Virus record (IMG/VR): IMGVR_UViG_3300017613_000426
Span: 1-25,248 of that record
Length of the DNA stretch: 25,248 nucleotides
Direction: 5' to 3' (one strand)
Source of the DNA: a virus
A model generated the notes under the pieces. That model searched no databases, was not told the DNA's origin, and saw only the letters and a list, made by a program, of their open reading frames with translations. Shown in pieces: positions 9,945 through 24,687 of this stretch; position 1 is the first letter of the stretch; every line of letters starts with the position of its first letter. The translations under genes were made by a program, and so were the position numbers.

Positions 9945-10139
9945 ATGACGAGCGAACGAAGGCACGTAAAAGTAACTGTCACGGAAGATGATGACGTCCA
10001 GACGGTCGAATCAGATTCCTTTGCGATGGCTCAAATCATTTGCCTTGGTCGTCTGGAATGGAACCCGGACGATGTTCATGAAATGCTGTTGTCCGGGGAT
10101 AAGATCGAATGCCTGAAGCGAACATTCCAGATTGCATGA
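9945..10139 (+). CDS. Unknown small acidic protein, 64 residues
   Basis: The ATG at 9945 follows CGGGAGCAAAGCC, an acceptable ribosome binding site. The product starts MTSERRHVKVTVTEDDDVQ and has a short beta start, an amphipathic helix (SDSFAMAQIICLGRLEW) and ends in ECLKRTFQIA. The bases before its start resemble those before the previous gene (AACAACACGA in both), which suggests that the leader sequence was duplicated with or between the small genes. No domain is recognised. Confidence 0.5.
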   Translation: MTSERRHVKVTVTEDDDVQTVESDSFAMAQIICLGRLEWNPDDVHEMLLSGDKIECLKRTFQIA

Positions 10140-10561: not shown

Positions 10562-10636
10562 CCAGAACACATCATACTGACCGGCCCCCATGCAGGCTGG
10601 ACAGATCACGTCCAACCTGGAAAAATCTAGCTCCGT

Positions 10637-10648
10637 TACCCTAGGGTA
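10637..10648. promoter_or_regulatory. 12-base perfect palindrome TACCCTAGGGTA, candidate operator
   Basis: TACCCTAGGGTA is a perfect palindrome 17 bases upstream of the -35 element of the next promoter, in a 139-base gap between genes. This location suits a dimeric regulator. The gene at 10701 or the one at 10188, both small helix-turn-helix proteins, are natural candidates. The CTAG core is under-represented in many bacterial genomes, which makes chance less likely. Function is inference. Confidence 0.45.
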
Positions 10649-10665
10649 CGGCGAGCAAATTCTGG

Positions 10666-10694
10666 TTGATTTAACTTGGCGATGCCACTACAAT
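10666..10694 (+). promoter_or_regulatory. Sigma70-like promoter with predicted leaderless start
   Basis: TTGATT (10666-10671) and TACAAT (10689-10694) are separated by 17 bases. The expected transcription start, about seven bases downstream, falls on 10701, which is the A of the ATG of the following gene. No ribosome binding site exists before that ATG. Promoter quality and the missing SD support leaderless translation of the helix-turn-helix protein. Confidence 0.65.
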
Positions 10695-10700
10695 CCTCAC

Positions 10701-10898
10701 ATGGCGACAGTAATCAACAACGAGCGGTGGTTGACGGTGGCCGAGGCCGCAGAACGGATCGGTGTATCTGAATCGTGCTTGCGTCGGTATTGTTCTCGTG
10801 GAAACATCGGGCAACGGATTGGGCGTAATTACGCCATTCCGTTGTCGCAGGTGAAGCGATTCACACGGCGCCCAGTTGGCCGGCCAAAATCTGCGTAA
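10701..10898 (+). CDS. Small helix-turn-helix DNA-binding protein (excisionase/MerR-like)
   Basis: The start at 10701 fits the conserved domain and the promoter; longer versions of the frame would run across the promoter. The 65-residue protein reads MATVINNERWLTVAEAAER, then IGVSESCLRRYCSRGNIG, then RIGRNYAIPLSQVKRFTRR, which is the classical HTH_17 order: 'w-L-T-v-x-E-A-A', recognition helix with 'L-R-R-Y-c', and the wing 'G-R-x-y-x-I-p-x-x-x-v'. The tail RRPVGRPKSA contains an AT-hook-like GRP. The protein is a good candidate for an autoregulator using the nearby palindrome. It may be a second member of the same family as the gene at 10188. Confidence 0.75.
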   Translation: MATVINNERWLTVAEAAERIGVSESCLRRYCSRGNIGQRIGRNYAIPLSQVKRFTRRPVGRPKSA

Positions 10899-11041: not shown

Positions 11042-11380
11042 ATGGCATTACTTGCTGGGAAAATGTACGCGGCAAAATGTGGTGAGCACATCAACGAGAC
11101 GCCGAAAACGCTGGACGAACTGATCTCCCAGTGCCAGGAATGGGACGGGCAAGTCGTAAAGGTGGTCCCGTATTTCCGGTCATTCGATGTGCAGCCCGGC
11201 GAGTATCGCGCCGACCGGCTCGATTACGTGTCGATTTCGATTCTGCCCACTGACGAGAAGGAGGGCGAATATGAAATTGACTGGCGGCTGTCGAGCACCG
11301 GATGGGTGCTCGCTGGTGACGGTGCTGGCGATCCCTGCACGAATGGCGGAAGCGTTCTCACAGGAAGGGACTTGGGATGA
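11042..11380 (+). CDS. Unknown protein, 112 residues
   Basis: AGGAGG at 11030-11035 sits six bases before the ATG at 11042, so this start is preferred over the in-frame GTG at 11036. The protein begins MALLAGKMYAAKCGEHINE and has an alternating helix/strand pattern: TLDELISQCQEWDGQVVKV, then VPYFRSFDVQPGEYRADRL and VSISILPTDEKEGEYEIDW. No family is recognised. The end overlaps the next gene (ATGA at 11377-11380). A frame inside its second half (ATG at 11271 with GGAGGG before it) could encode a 72-residue product, but this is judged incidental. Confidence 0.6.
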   Translation: MALLAGKMYAAKCGEHINETPKTLDELISQCQEWDGQVVKVVPYFRSFDVQPGEYRADRLDYVSISILPTDEKEGEYEIDWRLSSTGWVLAGDGAGDPCTNGGSVLTGRDLG

Positions 11381-11526
11381 TGACAGACGCGCAATTCAAA
11401 TTGATGGACAACCTAGACCTTGGCCGCGACATCATAGAACTGACATGGGGGGGGAGCGAAGGTGGATTCCTGCACGAGATGTGCAATGAAACTTCGTCCC
11501 CTTTGAACTGCCGACCTGCCCTGTAG
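11377..11526 (+). CDS. Unknown small protein, 49 residues
   Basis: The ATG at 11377 overlaps the upstream TGA and has AGGAAGGGA at good spacing, so translation is likely coupled. A second ATG follows at once. The product begins MMTDAQFKLMDNLDLGRDI and ends NETSSPLNCRPAL. It is short, slightly acidic and has no recognised domain. Its stop at 11524-11526 lies just before a stretch of hairpins that end in a terminator, so it is probably the last gene of the transcript that starts near 10966. Confidence 0.5.
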   Translation: MMTDAQFKLMDNLDLGRDIIELTWGGSEGGFLHEMCNETSSPLNCRPAL

Positions 11527-11658
11527 GAGATGCGGCATGGATCGCACAAGGATTGCGAGGTCGGCTGTTTTTTATCGAACTGGGATCGCAAGACCAGCGG
11601 CGTAGCTGGTCGGGTGTTCTGCCTCGGTGGTGGCTTGCTGCGCTGCCGAGGTTTTTTT
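11527..11658 (+). ncRNA. Candidate small RNA with GGA hairpin loops (possible CsrA ligand)
   Basis: Between the small gene and csrA lies an interval of hairpins. Two alternative stems place GGA in a loop: TGCG (11531-11534) with CGCA (11543-11546), loop GCATGGAT; and CGCA (11543-11546) with TGCG (11554-11557), loop CAAGGAT. Both loops contain the ANGGA pattern recognised by CsrA/RsmA. Further GGA triplets occur at 11526-11528 and 11583-11585, and GGATCGCA is repeated (11539-11546 and 11583-11590). A perfect GACCAGC/GCTGGTC hairpin follows at 11592-11611, then the terminator. The structures are visible; existence as a free RNA and CsrA binding are inference. Confidence 0.4.
11622..11658 (+). 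terminator. Intrinsic terminator before csrA
   Basis: CCTCGG at 11622-11627 pairs with CCGAGG at 11646-11651, extendable by a few wobble pairs, and is followed directly by TTTTTTT (11652-11658). A second perfect seven-base stem (11592-11611) stands just before it. It would end transcripts from the 10930 promoter or liberate the 3' end of the candidate small RNA. csrA begins 117 bases later and would then need read-through or its own promoter. Confidence 0.8.
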
Positions 11659-11774
11659 CTACGGCGGGGTGCTGGTCGTTCCAGCGTGCGGTGGTTCGGC
11701 ATCGTGAATCCAAAGGAAACCGAGCGACAGATGACGGACTGCCGCGCCCCGTCTTTCAAACAGGGAGGTGCATT

Positions 11775-11945
11775 TTGTTGGTAATCACACGGAAGATTGG
11801 CGAGGAGGTTCAAGTCGGTGATGCAACTATAGTTGTTTTGCGAGCGGGACCGCGCGACGTACGACTCGGCATCACTGCACCTCACACTACAAAAATCGTG
11901 CGTGACGATGCGAAGAAGGACCGTGATGGCAAAGCTGTTAGATAA
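11775..11945 (+). CDS. csrA: CsrA-family translational regulator
   Basis: The 56-residue product starts with TTG at 11775, preceded by the strong ribosome binding site GGGAGGTG. It reads MLVITRKIGEEVQVGDATI, then VVLRAGPRDVRLGITAP and KIVRDDAKK, aligning along its length with CsrA/RsmA. The RNA-contact residues are kept: L2, T5-R6 on the first strand, and R43 in IVRDDA, equivalent to R44 of E. coli CsrA, where the usual 'V-H-R-E-E-I' is replaced. CsrA dimers bind GGA in mRNA leaders and alter translation or stability. The SD itself contains AGGGA, so autoregulation is possible. The last 20 bases overlap the next gene. Confidence 0.92.
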   Translation: MLVITRKIGEEVQVGDATIVVLRAGPRDVRLGITAPHTTKIVRDDAKKDRDGKAVR

Positions 11946-12081
11946 TGCTGAACTGATCGAGCTTGGACGGCGAGTTGCGGAAGAGTCACGAGACTTTGAA
12001 ATCGACGGAAGACCTCTAACGAACGTCGAAATGTTCGCAGCTATTCAATACCAGCATTCTCTCGAAAGGGGCCCAAAGTGA
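11926..12081 (+). CDS. Unknown small protein overlapping csrA
   Basis: The ATG at 11926 lies inside the end of csrA and follows GAAGAAGGACCGTG, a good ribosome binding site, so this gene is probably coupled to csrA. The 51-residue product begins MAKLLDNAELIELGRRVAE and ends QYQHSLERGPK. It is mostly helical. The last codons (SLERG) come from the first copy of a 16-base repeat that recurs 290 bases downstream, in the same reading phase relative to the gene end. No family is recognised. Confidence 0.55.
   Translation: MAKLLDNAELIELGRRVAEESRDFEIDGRPLTNVEMFAAIQYQHSLERGPK
12056..12071. repeat. Direct repeat copy 1, ATTCTCTCGAAAGGGG
   Basis: This 16-base sequence is identical to 12346-12361. The copy lies at the end of the gene at 11926 and its AAAGGGG serves as ribosome binding site for the GTG start at 12078. 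Together the copies bracket a gene of different base composition, which suggests that the gene was inserted by recombination between repeats. Confidence 0.8.
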
Positions 12082-12437
12082 ACGACGCCCGGACGCTCGC
12101 CCGCCTGATTCTCAAGACCGCCCAACGAGGCCGGACGCTCACAATCGACGCGCCCGGACAACACGCCCACGACCTACGGCTCCACCTCGAGTATTTCGAG
12201 CCGACGCTCGGCCGGATCATCCGCGCCGAGCGAGCCGTCGCCGCGCACACCATCGACGCCGCCATGGTCCCCGACGGCATCCTCGCCAACGCCCTCGCCA
12301 ACATGGGCGAGGAGATCGACGACTACATCGAAACCCAAAACCACAATTCTCTCGAAAGGGGAACCGATGGAGATTCTGAAAGGGAAACAGGAGAAGCCGC
12401 GACGGACAATGATGTACGGTCCGCACGGGAACGGTAA
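12078..12437 (+). CDS. Unknown GC-rich protein bracketed by direct repeats
   Basis: The GTG at 12078 overlaps the previous stop and follows AAAGGGGCCCAA. The product has 119 residues, but the last 30 or so, after the second repeat copy, overlap the next gene in another frame. The body is helical: ARTLARLILKTAQRGRTLT, then HDLRLHLEYFEPTLGRIIR and AMVPDGILANALANMGEEI. From about 12080 to 12340 the sequence is clearly richer in C and G than its neighbours and uses C-ending codons, unlike the rest of the window. This suggests transfer from a source of higher GC. No family is recognised. Confidence 0.55.
   Translation: MNDARTLARLILKTAQRGRTLTIDAPGQHAHDLRLHLEYFEPTLGRIIRAERAVAAHTIDAAMVPDGILANALANMGEEIDDYIETQNHNSLERGTDGDSERETGEAATDNDVRSARER
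12346..12361. repeat. Direct repeat copy 2, ATTCTCTCGAAAGGGG
   Basis: Second identical copy of the 16-base repeat at 12056-12071. It stands directly before the ATG of the ATPase gene at 12367 and supplies its ribosome binding site (AAAGGGG). In the upstream frame it encodes NSLERG, matching HSLERG at the first copy, so both copies are read in the same phase. Confidence 0.8.
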
Positions 12438-13161
12438 AAGCACATGGGGGGCCTCGTGGCCAGGCGTGCTGATGTTGCCGACAGAAGACGGGCTAAATGA
12501 CATTGATTGCAACCGAACGCCGTTGATCAACACATACGGTAAGTTTCAGGAGGCGATGTCGTTTTTGTGTCGTGAGGATCACGAGTTTAACGCGGCTTGC
12601 ATCGACACGCTCGATTGGCTCGAGCCGTTGCTGTGGGCGCATGTTTGCACCCAACACGGCAAGGCGTCGATCGAAGAGTTTGGTTATGGCAAGGGCTACA
12701 CGTTCGCGCTCGCGGAATGGGATCGGGTGATCAAGGCTCTTGACTTTCTGCGTGAGCACAAATCGATGTCAATTATCCTGCTCGCCCATGCTAAGGTCGT
12801 GAAATTTATGGACCCAGAAAGCGACGGGTTCGATCGCTACGAACCGGATCTCCACAAGTCGGTTGCGTCTCGGCTGATGGAGTGGTGCGACGAGGTGTTT
12901 TTCGCTGGTTACCGGGTCGCGACAAAGAAAGTGGAAGAGGGATTTAACCAGACCAGGATGCGAGGTGTCAGCAGTGAGCGGGTGGTGTATACCTGCGAGA
13001 TGCCAAGTCATCTGGCGAAGCGTCGAGTCGCGTTGCCTGATGTTCTGCCGCTGAATTACGATGCCTACGCGGCGGCGATGAACGGCGGCAATATCGCGGG
13101 AGTGGTGGTGGATGGGAGTAGCAAGAGAAAACCAGTAAAGAAAGGGGAACCGACGAAATGA
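12367..13161 (+). CDS. Sak4-like RecA-fold ATPase (AAA_24 type)
   Basis: The 264-residue protein has a Walker A motif GPHGNGKST at residues 18-26, the hydrophobic strand ending CIDTLDW (residues 78-84) as Walker B, and SIILLAHAKVVKF as the following sensor strand. This order and length are typical of phage AAA_24 (PF13479) or Sak4-type ATPases, single-domain RecA relatives that promote annealing or strand exchange with a phage ssDNA-binding protein. Position directly before a DUF669-like gene strengthens the call, because the two are commonly neighbours. It starts at 12367, with AAGGGG at five bases. The last four bases overlap the next gene (ATGA). Confidence 0.85.
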   Translation: MEILKGKQEKPRRTMMYGPHGNGKSTWGASWPGVLMLPTEDGLNDIDCNRTPLINTYGKFQEAMSFLCREDHEFNAACIDTLDWLEPLLWAHVCTQHGKASIEEFGYGKGYTFALAEWDRVIKALDFLREHKSMSIILLAHAKVVKFMDPESDGFDRYEPDLHKSVASRLMEWCDEVFFAGYRVATKKVEEGFNQTRMRGVSSERVVYTCEMPSHLAKRRVALPDVLPLNYDAYAAAMNGGNIAGVVVDGSSKRKPVKKGEPTK

Positions 13162-13619
13162 CCAGTTTGCACGGATTCAACGCGGATGAGGTGGAACCAA
13201 CCAGCGCCCTCGAGCCGCTGCCACCGGATGTCTATGAGGTGGTGATCACCGAATCGGAGATGAAGCCGACGAAGAAAGGCAACGGCGAATATCTTGAGTT
13301 GCGTCTGGAGGTGCAGCACGGTCCGTTTGCGAACCGCGTGCTGTGGGATCGACTGAACTTGCGCAACCCCAGCGAGGAGGCCGTGAAGATAGCAAAGGGG
13401 ACGCTCTCGGCCATTTGTCGGGCGGTCGGGGTGATGACTCCGAAGGACTCAGAGGATCTGCACGCCAAGCCCCTGCTTGCGGTCGTCAAGCAGAAGGAGT
13501 TTGAAGGGCAGATGTCCAATGAGGTGAAGGGCTACAAGCCATCGCCGCTAACCGTCATGGAACGGGCAAAGACGGACGCGGTTGAGAATCCAAAGACCGG
13601 CGACGAAATTCCATTTTAA
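13158..13619 (+). CDS. DUF669-like single-stranded DNA-binding protein
   Basis: This 153-residue protein fits the DUF669 family: PLPPDVYEVVITESEMKPT near residue 22, then KKGNGEYLELRLEVQHGP and NRVLWDRLNLRNPSEEA. Members form an OB-like fold and are thought to bind ssDNA in phage recombination modules. The C-terminus is GDEIPF. It closely resembles the DDIPF tip of bacterial SSB, the tail that recruits partner proteins. Coupling to the ATPase gene is by ATGA overlap. The tip is visible in the sequence; its partner binding here is an inference from SSB biology. Confidence 0.8.
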   Translation: MTSLHGFNADEVEPTSALEPLPPDVYEVVITESEMKPTKKGNGEYLELRLEVQHGPFANRVLWDRLNLRNPSEEAVKIAKGTLSAICRAVGVMTPKDSEDLHAKPLLAVVKQKEFEGQMSNEVKGYKPSPLTVMERAKTDAVENPKTGDEIPF

Positions 13620-13731: not shown

Positions 13732-14430
13732 ATGGCTGGCGATTGGATCAAGATGCGTGAAGACCTGCACGAAGACCCGTCGGTTCTCTGGATCGCTCAG
13801 CAATTGGACGTTAGACCCGAGACAGTGGTCGGAATGTGTCACAGATTTTGGGGACTTGTGTCCCGACAAACTGGGGACGGATGTCTCAAAGGTCCGACCC
13901 TTTTGTCCCTCGGTTGCGTGTTAGGGTTGCCGGGTTTTCCAGAACTGCTCGTCCAAGTCGGCTGGCTCGAATATGACGAATCAGACCCATTATACCCCAT
14001 AACTACTATTCCTAAGTTTCAGCGCCATTTGTCGGAAAGTGCCAAGAACAGGGCACTTGCGGCTGAAAAGAAGCGGTTACAACGTGCAAGTTTGTCCCCT
14101 GAAACCGGGGACAAATGTCCATCGGAAACAGGGACTAGAGGAGAGAAGAGAAGAGTAAGAAGAAAGAAACATACAAAGAAAGAATGTGCGTTTGTTCCTC
14201 CGTCATTATCTGACATTGAAGAGTATGCCACCCAGACTAACTACCCGATGAACGCGAAGGCGTTTATTGCCTTCTACACCCAGAAGGGGTGGAAGGTCGG
14301 AACAGCCAACATGACCGACTGGCGAGCGGCAGTGGATCACTGGAAAGAGAACGGGTGGGGGGTTAGTGAAGACGGCAACGGCGAGAAGGTGTTAACGCCA
14401 GACGAATTCTCCAAGGTGTACGGCAAATGA
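13732..14430 (+). CDS. Replication initiator / primosomal-type protein with winged-helix-like start
   Basis: The ATG at 13732 follows GAGGGATCACGG and begins where homology is expected: MAGDWIKMREDLHEDPSVL. The product is 232 residues. 'D-W-I-K-M-R-x-D-L-x-x-D-P-x-V' with IAQQLDVRPETVVGMCHRF and WGLVSRQTGDG is a well-known start of phage replication proteins with a winged-helix domain, in which GFPELLVQVGWLEYDES is a later part of the domain. The middle is very basic (RGEKRRVRRKKHTKKE) and probably flexible. The C-terminal block (MNAKAFIAFYTQKGWKVGT to HWKENGWG) resembles the DnaD/DnaT-type domain of primosome proteins. It probably loads the helicase encoded by the next two frames. Confidence 0.75.
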   Translation: MAGDWIKMREDLHEDPSVLWIAQQLDVRPETVVGMCHRFWGLVSRQTGDGCLKGPTLLSLGCVLGLPGFPELLVQVGWLEYDESDPLYPITTIPKFQRHLSESAKNRALAAEKKRLQRASLSPETGDKCPSETGTRGEKRRVRRKKHTKKECAFVPPSLSDIEEYATQTNYPMNAKAFIAFYTQKGWKVGTANMTDWRAAVDHWKENGWGVSEDGNGEKVLTPDEFSKVYGK

Positions 14431-14888
14431 TCCCGGTTGATATCGAAACCGAACGGCTGCTGCTTTCTGCCCTGCTGATCATGCGGACCCCGGAACGTGC
14501 CCGGGCTATCAGTACCGTCCACCAAGACTGGTTCGTCGATGAGTGGCATCAGTGGCTGTTCACGACCATGAAGATGGCCCGCGACTGCGATGACGAACGT
14601 CTCCTCGGAACGCTATCAGAGGGAAGATGGGGGTATTTCTGGCCCTGGATGAAGCGGTTGATTGAATGTGACGCCGGCAAGGTCAAAGTATGGCGGGTCT
14701 ACGCGGCCCGTTTACAGGAATTTGCCGGCCAACGGAAGAAGATCAAGCATCACCTCGATGAACTGGAAAGGCTATCCGATGACGCGGCTGCCGTTCGTTT
14801 CCATCCAATCCGCCATGAAATCTTACATGGTGGATCTACAGGAAGCAGACCCCATCCTTTATCGGACGGGGCTCTGGCCAGTCGATGA
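14427..14888 (+). CDS. DnaB-type replicative helicase, N-terminal part (separate frame)
   Basis: The 153-residue frame starts at ATG 14427, overlapping the initiator stop. IETERLLLSALLIMRTPER, then TVHQDWFVDEWHQWLFTTM, corresponds to the N-terminal domain of DnaB-like helicases ('E-x-x-l-L-g-x-l-l', then 'f-x-x-x-x-h-x-x-i-f'). The last sensible part is RKKIKHHLDELERLSDDAA; the residues beyond it (HPIRHEILHGG onward) do not look like helicase. The C-terminal domain continues in the +1 frame from about 14779. Either the two are separate proteins with a coupled start, or a frameshift joins them to about 409 residues, which is the normal length. Confidence 0.75.
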   Translation: MIPVDIETERLLLSALLIMRTPERARAISTVHQDWFVDEWHQWLFTTMKMARDCDDERLLGTLSEGRWGYFWPWMKRLIECDAGKVKVWRVYAARLQEFAGQRKKIKHHLDELERLSDDAAAVRFHPIRHEILHGGSTGSRPHPLSDGALASR

Positions 14889-15657
14889 CGCCATAGGCGG
14901 GGTGGCACCTGGCGAGCTATGCGTGGTAGGTGCCCGGCCGTCACATGGCAAGACATTGTTTGGTTTGCAATGGATGTTCCATATTGCAACCCAAGGCACC
15001 TCGTGCCTGATTGTCAGTGAGGAGATGACGGCCAGAGCGCTGGCAAAGCGTGCTATCCAGAATGCAACGTCGATTAGCGAACGGGTCTGGCGGGAACGTT
15101 GGGATGCGGTGTTTGACGATGTGGTGGAATTCAGCGATGCCCGCCGGCCAATCCTGATTACCGAAGGCTGCCATTCGGTCACGGTCGCCCAGGACGCGAT
15201 AAACCAAGCGGTTGTCCATCACGGGGTCAAATTTGCGGTAGTTGATTACGTGCAACTGCTAACGGCCCGCGGTCAGAGCCGCTATGAGCAAGTCAGTGAG
15301 GTTTCGCGTGTCCTGAAGCAAACGGCCGTTGAGAACGACATCGCCATCATTGCCTTGGCCCAACTAAACCGCGCTGTGGAAACCGAGAAGGGATGCGCCC
15401 CGCAACTGCATCATCTTCGGGACTCTGGCCAGATTGAACAGGACGCCGATGTGGTTCTGTTCCTTCAGTGGCCGTACCAAAACGACAATAAATACGAGGA
15501 CGAGGCAGAGTATCGAGTGATTTGTGCAAAGAACCGGAACCGTGGAATCATGGGCTCGCGTGTGCGGTTTGTTCAGATCGATGCGGGCCGGCAGATGTTG
15601 ACGGCGGGTGGGCCAGACCCGAATTCGGTTCTGGAAGAGTGGAACTTGGAGGGCTAA
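14779..15657 (+). CDS. DnaB-type replicative helicase, C-terminal RecA-like ATPase part
   Basis: From the ATG at 14779 the product has 292 residues, with a linker helix (SIQSAMKSYMVDLQEADPI) and the full ATPase core. Walker A is GARPSHGKT (residues 51-59), Walker B KFAVVDYVQLL (151-161), sensor ALAQLNR (192-198), and near the end DSGQIEQDADVVLFL and KNRNRG, the arginine-finger region. AAAGG lies about seven bases before the start. The frame differs by +1 from the N-terminal part, with an overlap of 110 bases. All catalytic motifs are intact, so the ATPase is likely functional. The homohexamer would unwind DNA at the phage fork. Confidence 0.88.
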   Translation: MTRLPFVSIQSAMKSYMVDLQEADPILYRTGLWPVDDAIGGVAPGELCVVGARPSHGKTLFGLQWMFHIATQGTSCLIVSEEMTARALAKRAIQNATSISERVWRERWDAVFDDVVEFSDARRPILITEGCHSVTVAQDAINQAVVHHGVKFAVVDYVQLLTARGQSRYEQVSEVSRVLKQTAVENDIAIIALAQLNRAVETEKGCAPQLHHLRDSGQIEQDADVVLFLQWPYQNDNKYEDEAEYRVICAKNRNRGIMGSRVRFVQIDAGRQMLTAGGPDPNSVLEEWNLEG

Positions 15658-20481: not shown

Positions 20482-20510
20482 ATAGGCCCTAGCCGTATTC
20501 GATGTACACA

Positions 20511-20546
20511 GGCCACGCGCTCCTCCGGGGGTTCGTGGCCTTTTTT
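20511..20546 (+). terminator. Strong intrinsic terminator
   Basis: GGCCACG (20511-20517) and CGTGGCC (20534-20540) form a perfect seven-base stem with a 16-base loop that contains CTCC and GGGG (additional pairing possible), followed by TTTTTT (20541-20546). It closes the small-gene transcript that starts upstream and separates it from the secreted-protein cassette. Confidence 0.9.
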
Positions 20547-22726: not shown

Positions 22727-23248
22727 ATGGCCGACAACGTGAATGGCAAAACCGTAGAAAACGCTTGGCAGTTCTTGATAAAGATCGGCGATCGTCATGG
22801 ATTCAATGCTCTCATGCTTTTGCTCGCGTGCGCGGCACTGTGGTTTCTCGTTGGCGCTCCGATGCGGGCACAGCAGGCACAAGACCTGAAGGACCGAGCG
22901 TTGTTGATGGAGTTGCTGACGGACAGCACAGAGCGAGGCACAGCGGCACAAGAAAAGATGGCGATGGCCGTTGATACGCTTCAAGCGAGTCAGTTGGCAC
23001 TCGTTAGCGCGGTCCAGCAAAACGGGACGAAGATTGATCAAACAACGCATCTCATGGAACAGTCATTCGTTTTGATGGAAGATGTGCCTGAGTTGCGACA
23101 ACAGGAACTAGCCACACTCAAGGGGATTGAACAGAACATCATCGGTCAAGAGGTTCGCGACCACCTAAAGCAGTTCACTGAGAATGTACAGAACACGCAC
23201 GAACAACAAGTCGAAGACCACAAGACGATTATTGAAAAACTGCCATGA
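22727..23248 (+). CDS. Membrane-anchored coiled-coil protein
   Basis: The 173-residue product has one transmembrane segment at about residues 26-43 (FNALMLLLACAALWFLVG). The rest is a long charged helix with heptad-like spacing, e.g. AQQAQDLKDRALLMELLTD, MAVDTLQASQLALVSAVQQ, ELRQQELATLKGIEQNIIG and VQNTHEQQVEDHKTIIEKL. One anchor plus a coiled coil resembles the inner-membrane spanin layout, but no outer-membrane partner with a lipobox was found nearby. It could also act with the LEPR-motif protein, whose start overlaps its end (ATGA at 23245). The ribosome binding site is weak. Confidence 0.55.
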   Translation: MADNVNGKTVENAWQFLIKIGDRHGFNALMLLLACAALWFLVGAPMRAQQAQDLKDRALLMELLTDSTERGTAAQEKMAMAVDTLQASQLALVSAVQQNGTKIDQTTHLMEQSFVLMEDVPELRQQELATLKGIEQNIIGQEVRDHLKQFTENVQNTHEQQVEDHKTIIEKLP

Positions 23249-24687
23249 CCCGTCCCCTCCAACTCGAACGGCTCGAACCACGGCACATGCTGAGCGGTTT
23301 AGCCGATTGGGCTGCGCAGTACCCAGACGAAGCTATCGTCGCGAAGAAGCCAGGGGGCATGAGGTGCCCCGGTTCCGGTGCGTATGTTCGCAATGTGGAC
23401 AACGCTGGCGGTCGCGACCGATTCATCATGACGTTGGCTGAAGACGAGAACGGGAGACGGGCCGATTACTGGTGTGCGGACTACAGCGGCCACCAATTCC
23501 TAACGCTCGTCTATGCTGATGCGGACGACACCGAGGACAATGTTGCTGGTCGATGCCGGGTGCGAAATGGCTACAACACTGTCCACTGGATCTACCTGCC
23601 CGACAAAAACGGAAACGTCGCTGAACTACTCGGTACACGACACGCCATCCAGGGGAGTAATTCCAGCACGATACGACAATGGGATGACCCGGTAACGAAA
23701 ACGCCCATCTACGCAAAATCCTATTTCCACGCAAACGTCTGGGAGTACGACTTCCGCAGCGACCTCGTGACGTTCAAACAACTGCGTGGCAACTACGATT
23801 CGGATACCGTCGTAACCGAAACGATTCCCCACAAGCCGCCTATCGCCTCGCGTGTGAACTGGGATTCAATCGTGTTGCCCGAAACAGATCCGCAGCCGCA
23901 ATCGACTCCGTACCATGAGACGTTCGACTCGTTCCCCACGTACGCGAGCTACGACGTGGGTGATTTCGGGCGTGTGCAGGTAGTAGACGGTAAGCTGCGT
24001 CTCGACAGCATCGTACGCGGAACCTACGCCACGACCTCGGTAACGATTACGCTCGAGGGTGTCCCTGAGAACTCCTACGTCCTCGGTCAATTTGCATCGT
24101 TGTCTGACGAGTCGCATTCCGAGGATGGCGTCTGGATAAACGGGGTTCGGCGTGTGCCCAGGCCTGGACTGTGGTCGGTAGACGTGCCATCTGGTGACGT
24201 GGTAATCACGTTGCAGCAACGGGACAATTACCCGGCCCCGATTGATGGCCACGAATGGGACTGGATCAAAGTCGAGGCTGTGTCCCCACCAGCACCGCAA
24301 CACGGGACCATGACCGAGGTCTATCACCAGACGTTTGACACGGCACTGACTCGTGAGGACGGTTGGGAGTTCGACGGCAACGTGGCATTCGTTGGCGGTG
24401 CCTTGCAACTGGCGAACGCCACGAGTGGGAGCTACCAGACCAACAGCGCTACGCTCTCCCTCGCGTTTGAGCCACGCACGCTGATCATGAAAACGCGGAA
24501 CCTCAACGACGAACGGCACGCACAGGACGCCATTTTCGCGTACACGGATCAATGGGTGCGGGTCGGCGATTGGGACGACTTGATTATCGATCTGCCCACC
24601 GGCACGAGCAGAATCAGATTCGATCAGCACGACAACTACGACGCGAATTATGACGGGCGGCAGCTTTTGGGACTGTACCTACTATAA
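23245..24687 (+). CDS. LEPR-motif (Planctomycete extracellular-type) protein with two beta-sandwich-like repeats
   Basis: The 480-residue protein begins MTRPLQLERLEPRHMLSGL. 'L-E-x-L-E-x-R-x-x-L-S' is the Planctomycete extracellular motif (PF07595-type), found at the N-terminus of exported proteins of that phylum. Residues 30-200 form a first region with several aromatic and cysteine residues. Two related repeats follow: about 223-344 (YHETFDSFPTYASYDVGDF to WDWIKVE) and 360-480 (YHQTFDTALTREDGWEFDG to LLGLYLL). Shared features are 'YH-(E/Q)-T-F-D', a Gly/Asn-rich turn with DES-H or DER-H, and 'Q-x-D-N-Y'. They look like carbohydrate-binding beta sandwiches. The protein is likely exported by the host route and placed on the surface or in the virion. 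Confidence 0.75.
   Translation: MTRPLQLERLEPRHMLSGLADWAAQYPDEAIVAKKPGGMRCPGSGAYVRNVDNAGGRDRFIMTLAEDENGRRADYWCADYSGHQFLTLVYADADDTEDNVAGRCRVRNGYNTVHWIYLPDKNGNVAELLGTRHAIQGSNSSTIRQWDDPVTKTPIYAKSYFHANVWEYDFRSDLVTFKQLRGNYDSDTVVTETIPHKPPIASRVNWDSIVLPETDPQPQSTPYHETFDSFPTYASYDVGDFGRVQVVDGKLRLDSIVRGTYATTSVTITLEGVPENSYVLGQFASLSDESHSEDGVWINGVRRVPRPGLWSVDVPSGDVVITLQQRDNYPAPIDGHEWDWIKVEAVSPPAPQHGTMTEVYHQTFDTALTREDGWEFDGNVAFVGGALQLANATSGSYQTNSATLSLAFEPRTLIMKTRNLNDERHAQDAIFAYTDQWVRVGDWDDLIIDLPTGTSRIRFDQHDNYDANYDGRQLLGLYLL

Follow-up and report, generated by a model that had tools for sequence, protein, structure and literature searches.

The window, by which we mean the whole stretch of DNA analysed here, corresponds to an entire virus record of IMG/VR, 25,248 bases long. 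Tail genes are among the marked genes in its left part, a replication block recognised with Pfam and PHROG extends from 12.4 to 15.7 kb, and a C5 methyltransferase gene lies at 17.9 kb. A csrA gene (11775-11945) stands ahead of the replication block; this gene, those that follow it and the leader and terminator elements described below are all on the + strand. Downstream of csrA in the same gene run are a Sak4-like AAA_24 recombinase (12367-13161; PF13479, E=4e-41), a DUF669 single-strand-binding-like protein (13158-13619; Pfam, PHROG 6015), a replication protein beginning MAGDWIK (13732-14430), and a DnaB-like helicase (14662-15657; PF03796, E=6e-50). An excisionase-family DNA-binding domain at 10590-10898 (TIGR01764, E 2e-6, slightly below the cut-off) may suggest a temperate phage. 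Most of the best Sak4 relatives among bacterial genomes are on Planctomycetota contigs, and the ORF at 23245-24687, for which an NCBIfam search gave no match, starts MTRPLQLERLEPRHMLSG, a LEPR-type motif that we take to be typical of Planctomycetes surface proteins. Because the Sak4 relatives and this motif point in the same direction, the host of the virus is probably a member of the Planctomycetota.

The csrA product is 56 aa long, is read from a TTG start (MLVITRKIGEEVQVGDATIVVLRAGPRDVRLGITAPHTTKIVRDDAKKDRDGKAVR), and matches the Pfam CsrA family PF02599 with E=1.7e-12 and 47.5 bits, above the gathering cut-off of 27, as well as CsrA-like families in PHROG. Its sequence relatives in the PDB are RsmE (2jpp) and E. 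coli CsrA (1y00). An AlphaFold model based on an alignment of 21 phage sequences has a pLDDT of 86, and Foldseek with this model retrieved CsrA/RsmE structures at probability 1.00 (2jpp, 1vpz, 5z38, and 2bti); as modeled, the product has the CsrA fold. In the 21-member phage CsrA alignment M1, L2, R6, P36, and R43 are invariant, R43 occupying the position of E. coli R44, and the MLxxTR N terminus and the R44 RNA-binding residue conserved in the CsrA/RsmA family are both present. A sequence-only reading of this DNA had described a complete CsrA homologue of 56 residues with R6 and the R44 equivalent kept, and the family match and the invariant residues bear that description out. The score against the NCBIfam csrA equivalog TIGR00202 was 40.2 bits, below its cut-off of 70.1, and the protein is short and has no normal C-terminal helix sequence. 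We regard it as a divergent, short member of the CsrA/RsmA family and do not assign it as an ortholog of cellular csrA. On sequence and model together, csrA at 11775-11945 is a real gene, and its product an ordinary member of the CsrA family, predicted to bind RNA.

Phage csrA matched at least 329 IMG/VR stretches. A tblastn search with the csrA of the window against 50,697 phage records gave no match, scans of viral contigs with Sak4, csrA, or DnaB as single queries found no relatives, and a search with the replication protein found no relative nearer than the locus L164. This closest relative has the same order of csrA, Sak4, replication protein, and DnaB, and the replication proteins are 73% identical over a matched 143-residue stretch. 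The csrA gene also precedes Sak4 homologues in L029, L132, L138, L140, L259, and L260, and the order csrA, Sak4, SSB recurs in all of these six except L259. A 51-aa ORF (11926-12081; MAKLLDNAEL...RPLTNVEM...) overlaps the csrA stop. It had no Pfam, PHROG, or NCBIfam match, and among the phage loci compared a similar ORF was seen only in L164, where a small protein encoded 3′ of csrA (1982-2182) has the motif RPLTN(V/I)EM in common with it. The product of the 51-aa ORF, which we considered as a CsrA antagonist, is a possible partner of csrA.

Two terminator-like structures in tandem precede csrA. The nearer, T2 (11621-11658), was found by a terminator scan, has a 12-bp stem (11621-11652), an 8-nt loop, and a T7 run, and is the intrinsic terminator that had already been placed before csrA. 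The farther, T1 (11510-11573), had been missed; its 8-bp outer stem pairs GCCGACCT (11510-11517) with AGGTCGGC (11558-11565), is followed by a T6 run (TTTTTT; tract TGTTTTTT), and overlaps the 3′ end of an upstream 48-aa ORF (11380-11526). The hairpins with ATGGA and AAGGA loops that had been noticed upstream of csrA are both present, and T1 encloses both: hairpin a, TGCGG-catgga-TCGCA (11531-11546), and hairpin b, TCGCA-caaggat-TGCGA (11542-11558), in which the core ACAAGGAT matches ACARGGAU. Because they share the arm 11542-11546 only one of them can form, as had been recognised, and in the minimum-energy fold of T1 part of the AAGGA site is paired. An ORF at 11530-11784 crosses the T1 tail and T2 and is unlikely to be a gene.

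Under strict scoring, no more than four strong terminator-like sites are found on the + strand of the window, at 2221-2285, 11506-11569 (T1), 11621-11652 (T2), and 20510-20541; with a wide setting there are five real sites compared with ∼0.8 per shuffled sequence, which is above chance, and T1 and T2 both consist of the GC-rich stem and T run of intrinsic terminators. The site at 2221-2285 is a very strong inverted repeat of ∼16 bp (CAGGCTCGCCA/TGGCGAGCCTG) and then a T-rich stretch, directly 3′ of a tail protein ORF and within ORF 2157-2498. Since strong sites are so few, T1 and T2 probably mark a boundary between the upstream genes and a csrA-led replication operon, a transcription unit that would end near 20.5 kb. 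A sigma-70 scan, the consensus of which may not suit this host, recognised no csrA promoter and none between T1 and T2. In L029, L060 (a tandem pair), L164, L171, and L259, which have Sak4 or replication genes in common with the window, csrA likewise follows terminator-like hairpins, and gene boundaries comparable to the T1/T2 region are found in L060, L029, and L164. Phage csrA genes overall showed no enrichment of upstream terminators, whether large loops (8/52 vs. 41/405, p 0.18) or compact loops (3/44 vs. 13/319, not significant) were allowed.

SELEX with CsrA gave the consensus RUACARGGAUGU, in which ACA and GGA do not vary and AC pairs with GU to close a hexaloop, and one CsrA dimer bridges sites 10-63 nt apart (PMC7652899). 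The best match to this consensus among 817 GGA-centered 12-mers on both strands of the window is the csrA Shine-Dalgarno sequence AAACAGGGAGGT (11758-11769), a candidate CsrA site that agrees at 10 of 12 positions and has the layout AC-AGGGAG-GU; the AGGGA earlier noted in the csrA ribosome-binding site is found within it at 11762. Its AC/GU stem is just 2 bp long, and in long folds the Shine-Dalgarno sequence is paired elsewhere. A second candidate, ACACGGA (11787-11793), lies in the loop of a 5-bp hairpin, TAATC-acacggaa-GATTG (11782-11799), spanning csrA codons 3-9, and its GGA has an unpaired probability of 0.94-1.0. As sequence matches, ACAGGGA at 11760 overlaps the csrA Shine-Dalgarno sequence, and the GGA of ACACGGA falls 27 nt downstream of the Shine-Dalgarno GGA, within the distance that a dimer bridges. 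Upstream of both, a long GC-rich leader hairpin (GGCGGGGTGC...GCGCCCCGTC; 11663-11753) carries AAGGA (11713) near its apex and ACGGA (11734) in its stem; the fold of 11660-11830 has an energy of -59.7 kcal/mol and a z-score of only -1.0. From -100 to +30 the csrA leader contains four ANGGA and two ACANGGA motifs, the most of the 41 window genes (mean 0.78), and it is the only 82-nt + strand stretch with four ANGGA.

The csrA Shine-Dalgarno sequence was also compared across phages, with csrA loci retrieved by pattern (MLVLTR-like), control starts called mechanically from other genes of the same loci, and several of the motif tests chosen post hoc. The Shine-Dalgarno sites of ∼48 nonredundant phage csrA genes match the CsrA consensus better than those of 2935 controls (p 4.9e-9). 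An A at -2 of the Shine-Dalgarno GGAG is present in 27 of 35 phage csrA genes and 431 of 1143 controls (p 3e-6); when AGGAG is fixed the counts become 17/22 and 244/476 (p 0.013), and the CsrA-like character of these sites partly reflects Shine-Dalgarno strength. A closing stem of score ≥4 around ANGGA was found in 20% of phage csrA genes compared with 6.5% of controls (rank test, p 2.6e-4). Just upstream of csrA in L008, L171, and L260, the Shine-Dalgarno sequence sits in the loop of a hairpin of 6-7 bp (L008, AAACTTC-aaggag-GAAGTTT; L260, TTCAGT-aaggag-ACTGAG), and the nearest relative, L164, has AAC-acggag-GTT at this position. Nearly all of 20 cellular csrA genes of Planctomycetota, surveyed with no control set, have ANGGA at or near the ribosome-binding site.

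The sequence-only reading had offered two options, a regulator paired with a decoy and a csrA under its own control. The second is supported by the csrA Shine-Dalgarno sequence and the codon 3-9 hairpin, both outside the 11527-11658 element that had been stressed, and by the enrichment of CsrA-like Shine-Dalgarno sites in phage csrA genes as a class; the first, a decoy of the CsrB/RsmY type, is not supported. A decoy would require that a short RNA of 11527-11658, transcribed either from a promoter of its own or by polymerase reading through T1, act as a sponge titrating phage or host CsrA, which we consider very improbable. In post hoc tests, ANGGA sites closed by a stem are clustered within 11527-11800 beyond uniform expectation (3/8, p 7e-5; 2/7, p 0.002, with the shared-arm pair counted once), as are ACANGGA sites (3/11, p 2e-4, also post hoc), and the T1-T2 arrangement is similar to the dual terminators of E. 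coli rrn, tandem terminators with GGA hairpins nearby and the CsrA-binding sRNAs RrA/B/F in between (PMC8144298). In the window, however, the GGA sites are inside T1 and upstream of its T tract, so that transcription initiated between T1 and T2, where the scan recognised no promoter, would yield an RNA lacking them; there are only two, on one shared arm, compared with five in RrB (PMC8144298), and they were not seen to be conserved. The CsrB/CsrC and RsmX/Y/Z decoys likewise have ANGGA in hairpin loops and an end terminator, but decoys of this type offer multiple independent GGA hairpins, and the window element does not. Rfam searches of the element and the window gave no match at gathering and, on the + strand, nothing at E up to 5; in the related csrA loci they returned only a tRNA. 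The terminators of relatives, which are too distant for covariation, have a GGA loop in L171 and no ANGGA in L164, where the hairpin is long-stemmed, or in L259; none was seen between the two L060 terminators. Across the whole sequence ANGGA is not enriched (190 observed vs. 207 expected), and at least two ANGGA occur in 15% of 132-nt + strand stretches, so two in 11527-11658 are unremarkable. Because of this background frequency, the lack of an Rfam family, and the L164 terminator hairpin without ANGGA, the decoy is unsupported. The element has the appearance of two conventional signals for ending transcription, and its GGA hairpins would be no more than secondary binding sites for CsrA, located at the 3′ end of the transcript from upstream. 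Of all ANGGA in the window, the one at 10058, inside ORF 9945-10139, is closed by the strongest stem (score 7.8) and is a possible further candidate CsrA target.

The explanation that we favor, and think reasonably probable, is a phage csrA that regulates itself and is preceded by tandem terminators. Since the csrA ribosome-binding site is the best CsrA-site match of the viral sequence, the gene probably holds down its own expression. T1 and T2 would insulate an operon for replication and recombination, of which csrA would be the first gene, from the upstream transcription unit. A CsrA dimer, made by the phage or by a host that has a CsrA of its own, would bind AC-AGGGAG-GU (11758) and the ACACGGA loop at codons 5-7 (11787), 27 nt apart, and would block ribosome entry on csrA once the CsrA level is sufficient. 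Binding, repression, insulation, and any effect on infection are what we infer from these features. A plainer explanation would be a strong Shine-Dalgarno sequence and tandem terminators with GGA motifs present by chance, the CsrA acting only on host mRNAs. A Shine-Dalgarno sequence contains GGA by nature, ANGGA has no genome-wide excess, and the motif was chosen post hoc, but the first rank of the csrA site among 817 12-mers and the difference between phage csrA Shine-Dalgarno sites as a class and those of other genes make this explanation unlikely in our estimate. It is improbable, too, that T1 is a CsrA-responsive terminator, branched and with an inner hairpin as the CsrA site, at which binding alters how much transcription passes into csrA and the replication operon. 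Like T1, the L171 terminator (-100 to -29 from csrA) is indeed branched and has an inner ANGGA hairpin (caaggat in the window, CCGCT-gcatggaa-AGCGG in L171), and the long-stem terminators just upstream of csrA in L164 and L259 also enclose inner hairpins; the GGA loop, however, is present in only two of these four, T2 after T1 would stop read-through in the window anyway, and the numbers are small and the comparison post hoc. We are just as doubtful of a wider version, in which csrA genes of this group would have branched terminators with an inner CsrA site and CsrA would sense its own level through both termination and translation, a protein-controlled early-operon attenuator.

Phage csrA genes and csrA autoregulation are both already known. 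E. coli CsrA represses its own translation via four leader sites, one of which is on the Shine-Dalgarno sequence (Yakhnin 2011, reviewed in PMC7652899). The phage leader is similar in having predicted CsrA sites, one over the Shine-Dalgarno sequence, but differs in that it belongs to a phage gene, that the second strong candidate site is inside the coding start, and that no sigma-S promoter circuit was seen. CsrA homologues in tailed phages are likewise on record: 30 of 2517 phages carry csrA (Sobrero and Valverde 2020, PMC7366521), and plaques of coliphage PTXU04 were smaller when its csrA homologue was knocked down (PMC11879866). The csrA of phage JC1 sits between portal and capsid genes (PMC9144972), whereas that of the window leads a run of Sak4, SSB, and replication genes. 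PF02599 csrA is present in every one of the 20 Planctomycetota genomes searched (G001-G020, behind loci L244-L283), in 1-12 copies, and Rhodopirellula/Pirellulaceae-type genomes have 4-12; we found no earlier report of this expansion in the literature searched. Because the probable hosts often have several CsrA genes, phage and host CsrA may share targets. Phage csrA is common, and the model offered here for its control is that phage CsrA would repress its own translation at the Shine-Dalgarno sequence, a trait that, judging from the sites compared, appears to be common to many phage csrA genes.
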